A stretch of 64,000 bases of DNA, taken from NCBI GenBank assembly GCA_021904315.1, contig CM038917.1, forward strand, positions 10,152,041-10,216,040, given 5' to 3'. The DNA comes from Sphagnum magellanicum. Its lineage: Eukaryota; Streptophyta; Sphagnopsida; Sphagnales; Sphagnaceae. Position 1 is the stretch's first letter; the number at the start of each line of letters is the position of its first letter. Made by a program: the position numbers and the translations under genes. Positions 38,961 to 49,505 of this stretch are shown here, piece by piece. A model generated the notes under the pieces. It did no database searches and was not told the origin of the DNA. It saw only the letters and a program-made list of their open reading frames with translations.

Positions 38961-40205
38961 TCCCAATGAATTACAAAGTTCAAACTTTCAAAAATTTACC
39001 TTTTCAAATAATTTCTCATCTTCCTTGCCCTTTTCATTTTTATATTGACTTGATACAAGTGGATGGCCACTAACCAAGAACTTGAGATCTAAACGGATGG
39101 TTGCAATATTCGACCAATAACATGAAACCCGAACACCAATCAGGGCAAATTGTTCGTTTGTTGGTGTGTGTAACTAAAAACCTCTATGGCAAGGGGAAGA
39201 AACACATTCATCAAATGCTAATCATGGTAAAGTCCTTTTTTTAAACCACCACCATCATGGTCACCCTTTGAAATGAAACAACATGTGAAACCAAATATGT
39301 TCAAGTGGGATTGGTAATGATAATTTTAGCAAAAGGGTGAAACACACACTGAGGTGTAATACTTTCTAGCATATGTGTAATCTATACTAGTGTTAAAATA
39401 AAAGTACATACACAATGTAGTAGAATACATTATATTGCACAAGTCATATGACAAAACTAAACAATTTTTTTTTTACTTCTAGATTTTATCAATGATAAAT
39501 AATTACATTTTAAAAATGAGAAGTTGTATTATTAGTTCAAATGAATAAAGGACTTTATTTTTAAAATCCATATTTCATTGTATATCTCAATTTATGGTTT
39601 TCAAAATCTTTCAAAATTGTCTTCCTTTGTATCAATGGCATCGCACTATTTTCCATGTCGAAAAAAATCACACAACTAAGCATTTTAGTAAATATAATGA
39701 ATCCATAATCATATGATATGGACTATGATGCAAATTTTTTTAATTTCAAAAGTCCAATATGTTATGGTAATTAAAAATCCATTCTTGATATTCATACGAT
39801 GTGATCATTTCATATAATATATTATTTTGTTGAATCGTTTTCACATCTTATTAATTTAATTTTTGTTCCATGGCCAATAATCAGATTGTAACATAATTGT
39901 GTATTACATCTTAGTGTGTTTTCACCCAAAGGTGCAAATGCCATCAGCTAATAGCATGATGTCAACCCATTGGCAAGAATAAAAAAAGGAAGGTGGCAAA
40001 AGAACATGAGTTTTTTCACACAAAACATGGAACTTCACATTTTTCGCAATGGAAGTGAAGGCATCCCAAATGATATTGTGGGATGTATGTTATTCCCACC
40101 ATATGAACAACAAAGAAGGTGGGTCCCCTTTGGATTTAAATGTTGGTCATAAATGCAATGAATCAACCCAAAAACTAAAGGATGGGGGTGGCCCAACCTA
40201 GTGCA

Positions 40206-40760
40206 CACTACTACATATTGTGCCTTTTTGCAAAGGGAAAAACAAAAAACCGGAAGGGTTTGCGAAACAAAAACAACCTACCATATTTGCGATGTGACAT
40301 GCATCGCACCTTGTGGTTCACCAACCATCGCTAATATATAATGTACCTTAAATCATCGCAACACTTTTGCGACATATACCACAACCAAAACTTTGCGACC
40401 CTCTCAGTCTCCGTGCACGCTAGCGATATTCCACAGTTCGCACCTCTTAATCATACTCACAACATCACAAATTTTAAAATACACAAATTATCGCAAAACA
40501 CTTTGAAACTCACAAGAAATCACAATCTTGCGTTAATTGGCGCATCGCATTTTGCGTTTGAATATGTATTGCAAACCTCATCACAAATTTTTACAAAAGT
40601 TTCCGATGTTGGACGTATCGCAAGTTGCAATGTGTGTTAGTTCGCAAAGTAGTAAAAAGGATCTTGGAGAAGGAAGTTTCGCAAAAGGTTACGCAATGTC
40701 ATCTAATTTATCACGACCTTTTTTAAATCGCATAAAATCTCGGTGACATTGAGGTAGTAC
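40206..40760. repeat. Left subterminal repeat region of the CACTA element
   Basis: TTTGCGA/TCGCAA and one-base variants occur about every 30 bp in both orientations, for example near 40259, 40290, 40354, 40369, 40396, 40489, 40617, 40641 and 40678. In En/Spm the analogous subterminal repeats bind the TnpA protein. Here the motif is seen, while binding is inferred. Confidence 0.8.
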
Positions 40761-40921
40761 ATGTAGTAGTGCAAAGGAGAGTAGTACAAAGTTCCTAAAG
40801 GGCCTACTCCCGAAACTATAAAGGCTGAAATTCGCTAAAGACTTTGACACAATGAACATTATGGAGTAATATAGAACCACAAGCCTTAATGGCAATTTGC
40901 ATAAAAATAATGAGTAGTACA

Positions 40922-43900
40922 TTATACGTGGTCATCATCCACCTCAGAGGTTGTAAGCACAACCTCTGGTTTCTCACCTAGAATAGAACGGGACCGTGGC
41001 ACATATGTGACAACAAGTGACCACTCCTCTGGGTTTGGGGGATAAAGAAGATAAAAGCATTGTTCTACATGACTAGGAAAAGTAAATGGCTCTAAAGTTT
41101 GCCAATGAGATGGCTGATAATTGGTGGCAGATGTCTTTAACCGTGTGTGTCCGCACTCATCCTGAACTACAGTGCAATTTGCACCAACAAGGTTCACTTT
41201 AAACCACTTACACATAAACACATACTCTTCAAACTTTGAATGTGCATCATAAGACACCACCAAGATCTTTTCCAGCTTTCCATAATGTGGCATAATATCT
41301 CGAACAATATTCCTGTCATGCCAACTGCTTCTAGAATCCTGAATGAATTGCCCTTGAACTCCACAGTCAAAGGTGCGGCCCCTCTTTTCATCCAAAGTGG
41401 AAATCCTGAAATTAATATTGTGTTAGGCATTGTGAGTCAACAACTTATATGATAATAGAAACTTCATGCCCATAAAAATCATCCTAGAAACTAACTCATC
41501 TAAAAAACTTGTCTGGAATGTGAAGATGAGTTAATATGCCTAATGAAATAGAAAAAATAAATACCTGAAATGTTTTCCTTGTGTCCACATTGTTGAACGT
41601 GTTGTCACAACTCTCTGTGGTCCATGAACAATGGTGCGAACATCATCTGTGATCTCTGGAAAACATGATATACTTTCTCCTTGTGCCAACAATTGATCCA
41701 CTTCAGCCAACTTCTCTTTCATGTACTTATGTAACATAGGAAAAATCCTTGATCTCCCACTCATACTTTTGGCATTCTCATAGAAGTTCCTCCACTCTTC
41801 CATGACATTGCTATTATTCAACATGAATGTGGTCAGCTGAATTAACTCTGTAGGTAATAACAAACATGTTTGGATGACACCAGTCAAACGGTCTTCCTCC
41901 TCTTCTCTTTCCTCCATCCAAACATGAGGACATGATGGATCTATAGTGGCCAAGATGTTGGTGCAATAAAACATGCTCTCTGCTGCCAAGTGTCCTGTTG
42001 CCATGCTTCCCTCCACTCGTGCATGGTTACGGACATAACCCTTTAATACTGCCATATATCTTTCAAGCCAATACATCCACCGACAATGCACATGACCAGC
42101 AATGGCTATCTCATCCATAAGGTGAACTAGTAAATGCACTTGACAATCAAAAAATGATGGAGGGAAGGCCTTTCCCAACTTGCATACCACCTCTGCTGCT
42201 ATTACCTTCATTCTTGGAATCTCCTCTACAAATAACTCCTTTGAGCATACCCATCTCAACAGATATCCCAATGACCAAAGAACATCTTGTACTTCTGCAC
42301 TGGCTAAGCCTATTATTGCCACAGGCAATATGTGCTGTAGTAAACGATGATAATCATGTGTCTTCAGATACCTTGGCCACTTGTGGTCATCGTCCCTACC
42401 AAAAGCTTTTTGAAGATTAGCTCCATAACCTACAACAAGGATCCATAAAATTATACAAAAGTATTCTAGACATCCAACAAATAGTCGACTATATTTCAAA
42501 CTCTTTTTCTAGTATAAGGCATACAGATTTAAATATAAATAAAAGCAACAGAGTATTTCTAAATTCAACCCTTGCCATCAAAGTTCAAACCTGTAGGGAA
42601 TCGCATCTCTCCTATGCGATTTCGAAAGTCTTTTCTTTCCTGTGTAGTAAGTGTCCATGGAGCTAATGGTCGCTGCTCAATACATGTGTTAGGATCAACA
42701 ATAATCCACACATCGGGATGCCTCTCAAAATCCTCACAGGCCTCCCTAAAGTTACTATCCTTCTCTCCATAGAACTATTTTATGATAGCCTTGCCCACAT
42801 TTCCCTCAATGTGCATGGGGTCCAAGAGATGACGTATTTTCAACTCACCCTAATAGGGCAAGCTGTTGAGTATACCCCACCTTGTCAATCCACTACCCTC
42901 AAACACCATAGAATCATTTGGGTCAATAACTCTATTGGCCACATCCCTCCAATATGCAAAAGTGGTAGCTTTTGGAATATCACGCTCATCACCATAAGGC
43001 ATGTCAAAAGATGAAAATAAAAGTGGGTCTGATCTCATATCATGTCCCAGTGGAAGAAACTTTGTATGGCCAAGGTAAACAATTTTGTGAAGATGGCTTG
43101 AGTATTTAGCCATGTCCTCCAAACTTGGGCCACATGTAGAGCAGGCCTTATAGCCTTGAGTTTGCAGCCCACTTACAAAACCAAACCCTGATTGTAGAAG
43201 AGCTGAATATTAGAATAACAAATAATCACAAAACAGAATAATAAAAAAAAATATAGAGGCATGTGCATGATTTCTTACTAGGATAATCATGCATTGTCCA
43301 CATGCAGATTGCCCTCAACTTGAATACACGTGGTATTCCTCCAGTGGTCTTCCTCCCATCATATGCCCATACTCCATCCCACAGCGTTTTGAACTCATCG
43401 ACCACTAGTGCTAAGTAGGTGTCTAGGTTTTTCACCTTACTTGGCCCTGGGATAATAAGAGAAAGCAACAAAAATCCTTTTCTCATAGACAACCATGGAG
43501 GAAGGTTGTAATTCATGACAACAATTGGCCAAACAGAGGTAGGTCGTCCCTTTCCTACAAGTGAATGTGGACTAACACCATTTGATGCTAACCCCAACCT
43601 CACATGCCTAGGGTCACGTTCAAACTCTGGCCATGTTGACTCCACATGCTTGTGAGCAAGAGAGTCAATCGGTAACCTCATAACACCAGGCTCTGATCAA
43701 TGTTTCTTATGCCAAACCAAACTTGGCCAAGTCTATACATCGATGCATGTGCAGCAAGCGAGGAATAATGGGAAACCACCTTACTGATTTCATGGGCACC
43801 TTTTCTGTAAGCATGTGAGGATCATATCGAGCCTCTTCACATGTACTGCACTCCGTTAAATGGGCATTGTTCCCATGAAATAGCATGCAGTCATTAACAC

Positions 43901-44456
43901 GTGCATGGACAATTTGATACTCCATGCCTATGGAGGATAAGATCTTTTTAGCCTCCTTCCAAGATCCTAGCAAAACATTTTCCACAGGCAACAAGAAGCT
44001 ATGAAAATACTGGAAAATGTCTGACAACATAGTATTATTTGCCTTGTGTTTTGCTTGGATGTTTAACAACCCGAGTATGGCTGCTAAACGACTTAACCTT
44101 GCACCTTGAAAAATAGGTGTTCAAGCATGTGCCTCCGCCTCTTGCCGTTGCCGTTGTCCCTGGGCAATATGTTGATGATGTGGAACATCTACATTGGCTC
44201 CTTCATCATGTGGGTTGCCAGACATATCATCAATTATGTCAAGTCCAAACCAGTCAACCATGAAGTCATCCATCGTTTGTTCTTGGTTTGCAGGCAGTGG
44301 TGCTTCCTAAACTGGTTGAGAGACACCTTCATCATGAGCAGACAAGTCATTTGATGAAGAATGAGTTGATGAAGAGTCTGATTTGTGTGGCATGCCCATT
44401 TCTCGATATGTTGCTCTCAACCTCCGTGGCAGCATGTCTTCAAAAGGCCGAATATT
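40922..44456 (-). pseudogene. Tnp2-family CACTA transposase, defective
   Basis: This is the catalytic transposase. Exons 44456-43279, 43202-42591, 42429-41565 and 41405-40922 join through GT-AG introns. Order of domains: an upstream segment with SRLAAILGLLN, then the Transposase_21 core. The core includes EAKKILSSIGMEY, HLTECSTCEEARYD, HVRLGLASNGVSP, NLPPWLSMRKGF, SLIIPGPSKVKNLDTYLA, QGYKACSTCG and IRHLLDPMHIEGN. The DUF4218 region follows (YLKTHDYHRLLQHILPVA, FPPSFFDCQVHLLVHL, RWMYWLERYMAVLKGYVRN). The DUF4216 region (KILVVSYDAHSKFEEYVFMC) ends at the stop at 40922-40924. Premature stops lie at 44307, 44121, 43697, 42850 and 42775, and a one-base frameshift near 43722, so the copy is inactive. 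The neighbouring SET-like and zinc-finger-like frames may have belonged to the same transcription unit. Confidence 0.9.
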
Positions 44457-44602
44457 CTATGCAATACCAAATCTAGAAGATCTTAACTATATACCAAGCA
44501 TAGTTGCATATTACATTATAAACAAAAAATGCCAAAATGCATGTATATAGATATGGTATGTTATGTCTTAAACAAAGTACATAGTTCAGAAATGGTGGAA
44601 TC

Positions 44603-45393
44603 CTAACTCCACTCATAGTGTGTAAACAACTCATCTCCTGATCTGATGGTCCTAGTAACTATAACCAGGCAATGGTCTTCATGATAAGTCTGGCCATATG
44701 GTGCTGGAGAAGGTCCCTCAACAAAAACCCACTCACAATTAGCCCTACGCTTAAGATGAATCCCCACTGTACTGTTGATGAAACCAGCAATGTTTCCAGA
44801 ACATATGGGGTCTCCATCTATCACCCTCACATCACTATGCCTCCTAGTGCTACCAGCAAAGGTGTCCATCTCAAGAGCAAAGGTCTTCCACTCAGGATGT
44901 TGTGTGAGGATCTTGTTCCAATGTCTTCTCTTATAGATAGGCCCACCATAAGGGAACAAAATAGGACCCTCTCTACGACATCTAGCTGAATCCTCTACAA
45001 TGATGTCCTCACAAGCATATACTCCATAGCCATGCCTCTCTCCAAGTGTAAAGGTCTTAACAATCCATCGTCTACCCCAAACCACAACCTCCTCATCATA
45101 GGCAAATTATCAAGCAACCCAAGAACTATAGGGTTCCATGATTAGATAATATTGGCACATTTGCCAGTGAACTCACACATACCCCATCTGCCTTCAACAA
45201 TAGTCCTAGCATGACCCTCACTTGGACGTTGTGCTTTGGATCGCTGTCTAATGAAGGGCACACGTGGCCTTGCCTCATGCTGTGGCTTATTGGCTTCATG
45301 AGAGGTACTAATCCCTACAGCAAATGCCTACGAAAGTGCATTTCCTATGTCAGCTAAAACCCCTTGTGATAGAACATAGGGTGGTGGTTTCAT
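44603..45393 (-). pseudogene. SET-domain protein frame inside the CACTA element
   Basis: The frame opens at ATG 45393-45391 (MKPPPYVLSQGVLADIGNAL), runs through stops at 45330 and 45144 and a one-base frameshift near 45095, then stays open to the stop at 44603-44605. The C-terminal 160 residues have SET features in order. RHGYGVYACEDI resembles the SET-N Gly-x-Gly strand, and ILFPYGGPIYK lies in the central part. SGNIAGFINSTVG followed by ANCEW resembles the RFINHSCxPN region, with the His-Ser-Cys replaced, and IRSGDELFTHYEW resembles the C-terminal GEELTFDY motif. SET domains transfer methyl groups from S-adenosylmethionine to lysine. The altered His-Ser-Cys makes activity uncertain. It sits between the zinc-finger-like exon and the transposase on the same strand. 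Whether it was fused to the transposase or separate is unclear, because exon phases do not join cleanly. Confidence 0.72.
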
Positions 45394-45518
45394 ACGAGAA
45401 CCTTATTACATTCAAAAAACCACAACAAACCATGGAAATGAAAATAGTTTCAAAGAGGATTTCATGAAAAATAACATGTATCAAAAAGGAAAAAATGACA
45501 ATGGTAAATGACACTTAC

Positions 45519-45749
45519 CACATGAGATGAAGAAGTTCTTGGAGTAAGACCACGATGACGCCCAAATCGCTGAATGTGTTGAGCACAAACATATGACTTT
45601 TGTGAAATCTGACCAACACACTTGGTGCATTGGCAAAGCTACCGAGGTGGACCACGAGGAGAATGAGACACCTCTACCTGCGTATGAGCTGATGTGCCCT
45701 CATTTGAGAAGGATGAGTCATTAGTGGACACAACGGAGGAGGAAGACAT
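45519..45749 (-). pseudogene. Zinc-finger-like first exon of the CACTA unit
   Basis: ATG at 45749-45747 opens a Ser-rich stretch (MSSSSVVSTNDSSFSNEG). It is followed by LCQCTKCVGQISQKSYVCAQ then HIQRFGRHRG, a CxCxxC...CxxH arrangement like the N-terminal zinc-binding segment of many Tnp2-type transposases. The exon ends at a GTAAGT donor at 45518. A TAG at 45639-45641 interrupts it just before the Cys motif. It probably starts the minus-strand transcription unit. Confidence 0.55.
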
Positions 45750-46382
45750 ATCATCTGTCACATTAATACAGCACAAGTGTAAGGCAAAGACCAGATTAGA
45801 CTTTCAAAAATCATGTCGTACAACAATATAAACCCTTGACTACTCATAAATTGAGACAACCTAAAAAAAAAGAAATGCATACTTGCATCCAATGTGGACT
45901 CAACAATGCCTATAGGACTGGTTGCTCAAATAATCCCAACACCAATTTCGAAGTAGGGGGCAATATTGTAAAAACCCTTTGGCATATGCAAAAAAAAAAA
46001 CAAAATGTTAAAGCCAGAATAAATTAAAACTTTGCGAACCCCTTGTGAACCCCCCACCATCGCATCCCTCTTCACACCAAAGCCCTAAACCCTAAAACTT
46101 CCACTTACATTAGCGAAGTCTTGACTTCGTAACCCTCCAACGTTGTGAAAGTAACAACATTACACGACCTTTGCGATAAAACTCGTATCACAAGTTTCGA
46201 TGTGAGTTACATCGCAAGCCCTGAATTGCAGAAAGTCCCTAAGGTGGAGTGAAATGGAATCCCTTGAAGCTAGTGTAGTGAAATCTTTCTAGGGTCTTAG
46301 AGTGAAACGACATCGAAATTTGAATTCATTCTCGGCATTGTTCGAGAATTGTCGAAGGAAAGCTTGGGCATAGCGGATTGCA
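45750..46382. promoter_or_regulatory. Divergent promoter gap of the CACTA element
   Basis: This lies between the minus-strand zinc-finger-like exon and the plus-strand gene. It holds further copies of the terminal motif: TTTGCGAA near 46031, ATCGCAT near 46062, AGCGAAG near 46113, TTTGCGATA near 46170 and ACATCGCAAG near 46209. Both genes must start here, so the motif clusters sit in their shared promoter region. That suggests, but does not prove, that the same DNA-binding protein acts on the ends and on transcription. Confidence 0.55.
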
Positions 46383-48212
46383 ATGGCTGGGACTAATGCA
46401 AGGGGTTCTGGGTCTGGAGGAGGTGACAACAATGAGGAAAGGTTGAGGAAGATGATTGCTGATCACTTGAGAGCTTCAGAGCTCTTTGCAATTGATACTA
46501 AGACACCTGAAGGGTTGGCATCCTTGATAGCCATTTTAGGTCAAGCACTGCAAGCAGGGCTGATTGCTGGGGAAGCACAAGGAGATGAGGAGGCAAGGAA
46601 GGCTGCAGAAGCCAAGGTAGTAGAGAAGAAGAGAAAGAAAGATGAGAGAGCAACAACAGGAGCTCTCTCACCTAGAACTCTCGAGAAGAAAAGGAGGAAG
46701 GATGAGAGGGATGCCATCAGAAAAGAGAAGCTCGACCTGAAGAAGAAGGAGGAGGAGAGGAAGAAGCTCCCTCTGATAACATTGGCAGAGGAGGGAATTC
46801 CAACCGAGCTGGCATACACTGGGGCGAAGAGCACCATTAGGCACATTGTCTCCACCAACTTTGCACGAGGAGTTGAGTGGGGCACTTTCTCAAAGGCAGA
46901 GCAAAAGAGAGTGATAAATCAGGTCAAGGGAGCATTTCGAAATGGAGGAGAGCTTGATTCACAGTGGATTGCAGACAAGATCTCCAATTCAATGTCTCAA
47001 GTAAGATACCATGACAGGATGAAGATTCGTGCTCACCTGAGAGACTTGAATGTGTACAGGAACTTGGAGAGGCCGCTTTAGTTCTCAGAAGACATCTGGA
47101 ATGCCTTCTACTAGTCTAAGGTGCAGTTGAAAGTAACAAGGCAGCTGAAGGAGATCACAGAGCAGCTAGCCAAGGCCAAGAAGGCAAGAGAGTTTGGGAG
47201 GTCAGACCGTGACCTGAAGGCACTGGAGCTGAAGCTTGTTGAATGCCAATCAGTGGTGGACGAGGTTGGTGATCCACCATTGAAGTTCCTCAAGGCAGCA
47301 GAGCGAGTGAAAATGGTTCCAAACACCACCCACAGGCTAGGGCAAGGTGGCATTCCTGGCCTCAACGTAGCATTTGTAAGTACCCTAAACCCTCTCCTCC
47401 ATTTCTTTCCTGCAAAGACTCACATGCTTGTGAGTTTTTGTCCAGTCAAATTGGACTGTTTGCGATACCTTTGCGATGCGATACCTTTGTGATACCTTTG
47501 CGATGCGAATTGCATCGCAAAGACAAGTATATGGAGTTTTGGCCTTTTAGGTTGCGATAGTAGATACGATGCGATTTGTTTCGCAAGCTATTTCACAAGT
47601 GTCAGTATGCGAAGGTCTACGCTTCGCAAAAGTGGTCGGAGACTTGAATAGATTCTTTATGCGTTTTTTTTACCTATTGTATTATGGGGACAGTTTAAGA
47701 GGTACAAAAGGAAGATCACAGCTACATAAATGAATATGGGCCAAGAGCATGGCAAGGAGCATCTTTTTCAACATGTTGATGCACTATTGGTGAATGGGTT
47801 TGGTTGGGATTCCATTTTTGTTTATGTTGAAATTATTTTCATTTGAATCAAGATTTTCATTTATGGTGTTGACTAAGCTTTGCATGTTGAAATGCAAGCA
47901 TCTGAGGGTGAGAGTGAGAGCTCCGAGGGCAGCAGTGATGAGGAGGAGAGAGCAGGTAGCACTGCTCCCAGTGTGCTACCTGCTCCCAGTGCTACCACTA
48001 GCAGTGGACCCAGTTCATTTGCTAGTCGAAATGAAGGTTGTGCAGGGGGCAAAGATAAAGAGATTAATAGGGAGGAGGAGGAGGGGCAGGGGGATGATGA
48101 AGAGAGGGAGGAGGATGAGCAGCCTCCCCCTCCACAGAGAACACTAGGAAGAAAGATTCAAGGAAGAAATCCAAGAGGGGAAGGAAGTCTAGATAGACAG
48201 CTAGTGTGTTAG
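46383..48212 (+). pseudogene. Second CACTA gene, basic coiled-coil protein, function unknown
   Basis: ATG 46383 starts MAGTNARGSGSGGGDNNEER, then TPEGLASLIAILGQALQAGL, and a long Lys/Arg/Glu-rich segment (residues about 80-140, e.g. EKKRKKDER repeated), likely coiled coil. It then reads STNFARGVEWGTFSKAEQKR. Two TAG codons (47079 and 47112) interrupt it, but the frame continues through KVTRQLKEITEQLAKAKKAR and NTTHRLGQGGIPGLNVAF to a GTAAGT donor at 47376. A downstream acidic frame (about 47878-48212, ASEGESESSEGSSDEEE) is a probable later exon, although its phase does not join directly. Its position opposite the transposase recalls the second protein (TnpA) of En/Spm elements, which binds terminal repeats. 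No TnpA sequence similarity is claimed. Confidence 0.6.
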
Positions 48213-48936
48213 ATACCCAAGGGTTGCAAACCCTTTTACATTGTAAAATTTGAAATTTTGATATAGATTTTTTTTTTGTGGCCCAAAGTGACCCAAATAA
48301 ACCCTACTTCCAAAATAAGAATAAAGTGCCATGCTCTTGCGATACACAGTGCATCTCAAAACTATTTGCGAGTCATAATTCTTTGCAACACTGCAAAAGC
48401 CAAAAGACCAATAATACCATGTCACAGACATCGCTACATTCTTGGGGGTAAAATCATTCCAGAACACGTTTGCGAAATCATAGATTTCGCAAACTTTTAG
48501 CGGCATTCTGAGAATCCCAAAAAGTTTGCGTGAGATCTTAAAAGCCTATCGATTTCCGATATAAGATCTAACGCAAACTTTTTGGGATTCTCAAAATGCC
48601 GTTAAGGGTTTGCGATAGACCTTATTACGGAAACTGATAGACTTTTGAGTCGATTTGCTAAGTCGTTGCGGCGATGGGTTTGTTGCAAATAATTTCCGAT
48701 GTAATGTTAATCGCAAACGGTATATAGAAGCAGTATAAATCGTAAAAGTTTTATGATTGTATCAAGTTCAGGAGTTGTGAAGGACTTGTGATTGTACGGG
48801 TGCGAATGTTATGGTATCGCAAAGGCTTAACAATTTGCAAGGAGTTATGGTTCGCAAATGCAGGTTTTTGGAAACTTCTTTCTTTGTTGTTTGCGATGAT
48901 ATGTGGATCACAAAATAGCCCCCTGTTGTTGTAGTG
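47455..48936. repeat. Right subterminal repeat region of the CACTA element
   Basis: TTTGCGAT and ATCGCAAA-type motifs recur densely: near 47459, 47470, 47497, 47514, 47552, 47579, 47608, 47623, 48338, 48366, 48468, 48616, 48711, 48816, 48851 and 48890. The array mirrors that at the left end. The acidic second-gene exon (47878-48212) lies in the middle of the interval, where the motif is sparse. Confidence 0.75.
48497..48605. repeat. Near-perfect 44-bp inverted repeat (hairpin)
   Basis: The left arm 48497-48540 (starting TTAGCGGCATTCTGAGAATC) pairs with the right arm 48562-48605 with three mismatches over 44 bases, separated by a 21-base loop. It lies in the right subterminal part of the CACTA element, and each arm contains one TTTGCG motif. 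Confidence 0.88.
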
Positions 48937-48939
48937 GCA

Positions 48940-49352: not shown

Positions 49353-49505
49353 CACTACTACAAAATGTGGGTGCAATTCACTAGTCCCCATTCATTAAAC
49401 TAGTGAATTCATTACTTTCCAATTAATCCCCATTTATTAAAACAAGTGAATTCACTCAAATCTAGTGGAATCACCTGGCATACATGGACACCTTTTGTTG
49501 TAGTG
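49353..49505. mobile_element. 153-bp mini-CACTA (MITE) with AAA target duplication
   Basis: The left end is CACTACTACAAAATGTG and the inverted right end is CACTACAACAAAAGGTG (15 of 17 match). AAA flanks both sides (49350-49352 and 49506-49508). The interior is non-coding and contains two related segments (GTCCCCATTCATTAAACTAG and ATCCCCATTTATTAAAACAA). Its left end matches that of the large CACTA element at 15 of 17 bases, so a transposase of that family could have moved it. Confidence 0.85.

Follow-up and report, generated by a model that had tools for sequence, protein, structure and literature searches.

Few transposons are known to carry chromatin enzymes of their own. Plant CACTA (EnSpm) elements encode Tnp2 and TnpA, and VANDAL elements belong to a superfamily other than CACTA. 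SET-domain proteins are recognised by the motifs GxG, NHSC and a final tyrosine; a SET domain fused to one mariner copy forms the primate host gene SETMAR, and a minimal SET protein without pre-SET and post-SET regions, vSET, serves chlorella viruses as an H3K27 methyltransferase. Within transposons, SET genes have been reported from HarbingerS and MuDR elements of Phytophthora (Kojima and Jurka 2014, as cited in PMC12730594), and TET/JBP genes from fungal EnSpm and other transposons, for which the account in PMC12730594 mentions a proposed anti-silencing role. The VANDAL elements of plants encode VANC, described as sequence-specific anti-silencing proteins (PMC5735166, PMC10398659). A literature search at the level of titles and abstracts, covering few subscription papers, returned no report of SET in a CACTA element or in a plant transposon. 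The preliminary description of the DNA analysed here had regarded SET as non-standard CACTA cargo; SET in transposons as such has a precedent in the HarbingerS and MuDR elements of Phytophthora.

The CACTA element and its genes

The window, by which we mean the whole 64-kb stretch of DNA analysed, contains an element that begins with CACTACAACA at 48936 on the minus strand and ends with CACTACTACA at 40206 on the plus strand, with TGC/TGC flanks when read on the minus strand. The terminal pattern CACTACWACA occurs five times in the window, against 0.31 matches expected from shuffling. The element displays the hallmarks of CACTA/EnSpm transposons, namely CACTA...TAGTG termini, a 3-bp duplication, Tnp2 with DUF4218/DUF4216, and subterminal repeats; repeats of the TTTGCGATG type lie near both element ends and also between the divergent genes. 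On the minus strand the gene order is zinc-finger exon (45749-45519), SET exon (45402-44603) and Tnp2 gene (44456-40922). The features are as follows:

40206..48936, minus strand: CACTA (EnSpm) element, copy of family A, 8,731 bp, recognised by its ends, the TGC/TGC duplication and full-length sister copies
48927..48936, minus strand: 5' terminal inverted repeat CACTACAACA
40206..40215, plus strand: 3' terminal inverted repeat CACTACTACA
48937..48939: target site duplication, first copy, GCA on the plus strand
40203..40205: target site duplication, second copy, GCA on the plus strand
48468..48915: 5' subterminal repeats around TTTGCGATG, including a 73-nt inverted repeat
46166..46218: internal copies of the TTTGCGATG-type repeat between the two divergent genes, with more at 47459-47521
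40286..40640: 3' subterminal repeats with the TTTGCGATG-type motif
46383..47492, plus strand: basic, apparently coiled-coil-like divergent ORFs (from the ORF list), possible TnpA-type gene
45519..45749, minus strand: zinc-finger exon (Transpos_assoc-like), 77 codons, donor GTAAGT from 45518
44603..45402, minus strand: SET exon, ATG at 45393, SET domain 45106-44606, stop codon TAG 44605-44603
40922..44456, minus strand: Tnp2 gene, exon start 44456 (AG acceptor, phase 0), ATG 44435, core 43696-42850
42508-41540 and 41422-40922, minus strand: DUF4218 exon and DUF4216-like part, respectively, of the Tnp2 gene 40922..44456

The Tnp2 gene of the window matches PF02992 (E=1.4e-38) and DUF4218 (E=4.3e-30), as well as DUF4216 with a score under its cut-off (E=3.1e-5). 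A Pfam search with 46374-47081 returned no family above cut-off for the divergent ORFs; the plus-strand gene (about 46383-47492) may have a TnpA role. Just outside the main element, at 49353-49505, lies a 153-bp CACTA-type miniature element, CACTACTACA...TGTTGTAGTG, with AAA/AAA flanks.

Compared with its sister copies, the window copy is damaged. Its zinc-finger exon has one internal stop, its SET exon has a 1-base gap and two stops, and its SET acceptor reads AA in place of AG.

The SET domain

The SET ORF extends from the ATG at 45393 to the end of the stop codon at 44603, which are the limits given by the preliminary description. Its frame 45106-44606 on the minus strand (167 residues) matches the SET profile PF00856 with E=2.1e-5 and 25.3 bits, only slightly over the curated cut-off of 22.4. 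The profile search that the preliminary description proposed is therefore significant, and the SET-like frame does lie where it was placed: between a zinc-finger-like exon and the Tnp2 core, on the same strand, inside an element with both ends and a target duplication (40206-48936, TGC/TGC). PF00856 was also matched by all 13 aligned family-A copies (best E=4.6e-6), and by the SET of a second lineage, called B and described below, which reaches 30.5 bits (E=5.2e-7) and covers positions 1-104 of the 105 in the profile. In less damaged copies, the SET ORF has 263 residues (MKPPPYVLSQ...ELFTHYEWS), and the product of the exon consists of about 97 N-terminal residues followed by a minimal SET domain.

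An alignment of nine SETs from both lineages has 25 invariant columns, among them G.G, N..G...S, NC and F.HY, the last with the final tyrosine. The position of NHSC reads NST or NSS, and KST in the family-A copy L009, where N is replaced by K, so that the catalytic activity of the domain is not assured. Two AlphaFold models made from shallow alignments have pLDDT values of 29.9 and 37.5 and are unusable, and the assignment of the SET fold therefore rests on sequence. PDB sequence searches with the SET gave no significant match; for lineage B, the highest-ranking SET chains were those of ASH1L and EZH2, from E=0.18 upward, too weak for naming a subclass. Viral contigs gave no relative of the SET (in one search, 96 stretches fitted a pattern and none was confirmed), and bacterial and archaeal genomes yielded 108 such stretches and no confirmed relative. 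Tnp2, searched in phages, had no match, and an NCBIfam search returned nothing useful.

Copies and linkage to Tnp2 in the genome

We searched the 438,994,042-base assembly from which the window comes. At E≤10, the 263-residue SET query gave 131 matches over the whole genome, of which 127 belong to family A, one to lineage B, and three are weak and short; this query recovered no other SET gene of the genome, within the reach of a BLAST-type search that may miss distant relatives. Residues 1-263 are covered without a stop in 32 of the 127 family-A matches, and these uninterrupted ORFs make expression and assay of the protein feasible. For Tnp2, the best 150 of 446 candidates were scored and those with at least 74% identity were assigned to family A, so that totals are minimum values. 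On this basis, a SET lies within 4 kb at 96 of the 103 listed Tnp2-A places and, conversely, a Tnp2 from the same best 150 of 446 lies within 4 kb at 97 of the 106 merged SET-A places; the partner is absent within 4 kb at seven listed Tnp2-A places and nine SET-A places. Family A thus comprises about a hundred places at which the SET exon is kept. The same-genome search suggested by the preliminary description therefore shows that the SET is not unique to the window copy.

Twenty fetched copies and the window copy (21 in all) were examined. The 3-bp duplication matches in 13 of the 15 copies with both ends readable, the exceptions being L026 and L028, and pairwise differences range from 3.2 to 5.2% with a mean of 4.3% (L027 left out).

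Contig C20 (4.7 Mb) has a size that fits the reported sex chromosome; Sphagnum chromosome 20 is given as about 5 Mb across the genus in PMC9946827. This contig carries six of the 106 merged SET-A places against 1.1 expected from its length. Two of the six are 2.3 kb apart and perhaps belong to one element (Poisson P for at least five, about 0.006).

Two further loci, L030 and L031, were rejected as SET-transposon loci, having no match to the SET, Tnp2 or DUF4218 of either lineage and no exact CACTACWACA terminus. Positions 3255-3605 of L030 and six similar SET matches, L031 included, represent a repeated host-like SET fragment with frames of 117-126 aa; in L030 and L031, the two places opened, a cupin/germin-like ORF lies 2-3 kb from the fragment (Pfam run on L030 only).

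A second SET lineage and Tnp2 lineages without a SET match

The distant match of the 263-residue query, L029 (29% identical, E=9.8e-4), defines lineage B. Here too, Tnp2 and DUF4218 lie beside the SET on one strand. A search with the lineage-B SET gave five copies, three of them with stops, and in all five the SET precedes Tnp2 and DUF4218 in collinear order. No CACTA terminus was recognised in the fetched lineage-B stretches, which may end short of the element ends. The SETs of the two lineages are about 29% identical; when the best 150 of 499 candidates were scored, the lineage-B Tnp2 (L041) reached 58% identity with Tnp2s lacking a SET match and only 42-46% with that of family A.

At the 98 other listed Tnp2 places (from the best-scored 150 of 446 and of 499 candidates), no SET match was found within 6 kb. 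Forty-seven of these 98 places have a zinc-finger (PF13963) match within 5 kb upstream of Tnp2 (48 pairs), and at the remaining 51 none was detected over that distance. The starts of zinc finger and Tnp2 are less than 1.5 kb apart in 44 of the 47, typically about 1 kb. In four of the 44, the two matches lie in frames of equal length (811, 674, 674 and 665 aa), with about 1 kb between them in 40 more; the equal frame lengths indicate that zinc finger and core are most likely one exon. Since the two are near neighbours in other lineages, the SET exon, which lies between zinc finger and Tnp2 core in the SET lineages, sits between two parts of a transposase. The sensitivity of the SET searches was low, the Pfam genome search having listed one of the five lineage-B SETs and the family-A query having found one of the five, and the statement that SET is missing elsewhere therefore rests mainly on the spacing of zinc finger and Tnp2.

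Five Transpos_assoc matches in open frames of an equal 77 aa (C13:7332451, C2:6016074, C1:4990206, C13:8203330 and C1:5347919) have no Tnp2 within 6 kb among the 98 places listed for other lineages.

Gene structure

The zinc finger of lineage B matches PF13963 (Transpos_assoc) with E=7.2e-5, under the curated cut-off, and the lineage-A exon has no meaningful Pfam match (best E=0.094, to an unrelated family). For the exon that the preliminary description called zinc-finger-like, the label can be refined: it is probably a Transpos_assoc domain, of the kind found near Tnp2 in other lineages.

Splice signals were read in 20 family-A copies (L027 left out). The donor of the zinc-finger exon is GTAAGT in 19 and GTAAAT in one, the SET acceptor is AG in 18 and AA in two (the window copy being one of these), and the Tnp2 acceptor is AG in 19 and AA in one. 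The zinc-finger exon is open in six of the 20 and the SET exon in nine. A stop codon ends the SET frame in 20 of 20 copies, which rules out that SET is a domain within one long transposase protein. As read from the sequence of L014, the end of the zinc-finger exon, the start of SET and the start of Tnp2 are all in phase 0 in family A, suggesting one gene with the alternative ends zinc finger-SET and zinc finger-Tnp2; in lineage B (L029), the junction of zinc finger and SET is also in phase 0. Besides the possible splice from the zinc finger, Tnp2 has an ATG of its own at 44435.

Mutation spectrum and selection

Among family-A copies, C>T (and G>A) changes at CpG and CHG dominate, with 0.80-0.87 mutation classes per site compared with 0.26-0.28 at CHH, the pattern that CG and CHG methylation of the DNA would leave. 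The strong CHG and CpG decay in the 20 copies constitutes, in itself, a mutational record of CHG methylation.

Nonsynonymous-to-synonymous ratios (N/S) were computed against an expectation corrected for this spectrum. The SET exon has a ratio of 0.74 (112 N, 45 S, P=0.06). In the 340-codon Tnp2 exon the ratio is 0.73 (P=0.016), in the 214 codons that follow it is 0.63 (P=0.009), and the DUF4218 exon and the zinc-finger frame have 0.82 (P=0.12) and 0.70 (58 N, 26 S), respectively. Frames outside the gene models range from 0.71 to 1.67, and with this noise the family-A ratios are weak evidence. In lineage B, the SETs of L038-L041 have omega values of 1.50, 0.96, 0.57 and 1.44 against L029. DUF4218 resembles them (1.03, 0.99, 0.46 and 1.81), unlike the two Tnp2 parts (0.26-0.65). 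The comparison of dN/dS among copies that the preliminary description proposed thus has a weak or mixed outcome (SET N/S 0.74, P=0.06; lineage-B omega 0.57-1.50), with weak or no sign of recent purifying selection on SET. Long-term constraint is implied by the fact that, at about 70% protein divergence, the frame is open and motifs are shared.

Origin and possible role of the SET gene

Taken together, these data make it almost certain that SET is a resident gene of a CACTA transposon lineage. The preliminary description left two origins side by side, capture of a host gene and genuine membership in a transposon lineage; the latter is supported by the 96 of 103 listed Tnp2-A places and the five of five lineage-B copies. 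We rejected recent capture from the host in view of lineage B, the co-occurrence with Tnp2, and the lack of a close host relative among the matches listed at E≤10. CACTA elements are known to capture genes, and the weak or unseen purifying selection in recent copies is what one would find if a host SET gene had been amplified as a passenger without a role for the element, in the manner of Pack-CACTA. We nevertheless consider this very improbable: lineages with SETs about 29% identical keep the gene in the same place, with the zinc finger/SET junction in phase 0 in both; the 263-residue query matched no other SET gene of the genome at E≤10 in a BLAST-type search in which misses are possible; and SET is kept at 96 of 103 listed Tnp2-A places (best 150 of 446 scored). 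The close host parent and sporadic presence that mark Pack-CACTA elements are not what family A displays in these searches. A chance SET-like frame or an artefact would fit a single-copy Pfam score barely over cut-off and AlphaFold pLDDT values of 29.9 and 37.5, but is scarcely credible when 13 of 13 copies match SET, lineage B matches it independently (E=5.2e-7), and 32 of 127 family-A matches span residues 1-263 stop-free.

What the resident SET does is a matter of graded likelihood. SET proteins with non-histone substrates exist, and the protein might target the transposition machinery instead of silencing chromatin, either by methylation of Tnp2 or TnpA or by limiting copy number; gene location and splice evidence would be the same and sequence does not fix the substrate, but the decay spectrum points to strong pressure on the element from DNA methylation, and we judge this alternative unlikely. 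Less likely still is a catalytically dead SET fold used by a zinc-finger protein for dimerisation or binding. The replacement of NHSC by NST/NSS speaks for it, as do SET omega values that are close to 1 or higher in all but one of the four lineage-B pairs; G.G and F.HY with its final tyrosine, invariant in nine A and B sequences, speak against it.

Our preferred reading is that of a transposon-encoded, element-targeted methyltransferase, probably anti-silencing, and because NHSC is altered we place the methyltransferase and anti-silencing reading at moderate odds, with about an even chance of being correct as a whole. Going by splice signals and phase, one pre-mRNA would give rise to a zinc finger-SET protein ending at the SET stop codon, or, with the SET exon skipped, to zinc finger-Tnp2. 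That a zinc finger-SET product is made appears quite probable; whether SET is alternatively spliced with Tnp2 could equally go either way. From the functions of the domains, the zinc finger would guide not only the transposase but also the SET protein to the element, where the SET protein would methylate histones, or else the transposase or TnpA. The SET is somewhat more likely active than inactive as an enzyme, and its action in an anti-silencing direction is a tentative proposal; the most likely benefit would be to counter silencing of the CG/CHG-methylation type, whose mutational footprint is seen in family A. It is tempting to speculate further that the element is a self-targeting epigenome editor, in which alternative splicing would yield either zinc finger-SET, keeping the chromatin of the element open, or zinc finger-Tnp2, and we hold this most specific version to be rather doubtful. 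A plant DNA transposon whose transposase gene includes a domain of the histone-methyltransferase type would be a chromatin editor from nature, targeted by sequence, and would allow escape from CHG methylation and H3K9 silencing to be tested directly, with the Tnp2 lineages without a SET match as built-in controls.

Comparison with known systems

SETMAR, like family A, combines SET with transposase sequence, yet is not a transposon lineage, and vSET shares with family A the minimal SET without pre-SET and post-SET regions, but is viral. VANDAL elements resemble the proposed role of zinc finger-SET in that a plant transposon encodes an anti-silencing protein; in the portions of PMC5735166 and PMC10398659 concerned with VANC, it is not described as a SET enzyme. 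The fungal TET/JBP transposons are, like family A, DNA transposons with an enzyme for an epigenetic mark, EnSpm included, but their enzyme is a dioxygenase acting on DNA, whereas that of family A is a SET protein (fungal elements as outlined in PMC12730594). HarbingerS and the SET-bearing MuDR elements share with family A the combination of a DNA transposon and a SET histone-methyltransferase gene; by their description in PMC12730594, they are set apart from it as members of other superfamilies in oomycete hosts. The window element does not belong to HarbingerS, its transposase being Tnp2. With plant CACTA/EnSpm elements, finally, family A shares termini, the 3-bp duplication, subterminal repeats, the Tnp2-DUF4218-DUF4216 arrangement and a possible TnpA-type gene, and to this plan it adds a SET exon that separates the Transpos_assoc-like exon from the Tnp2 core.
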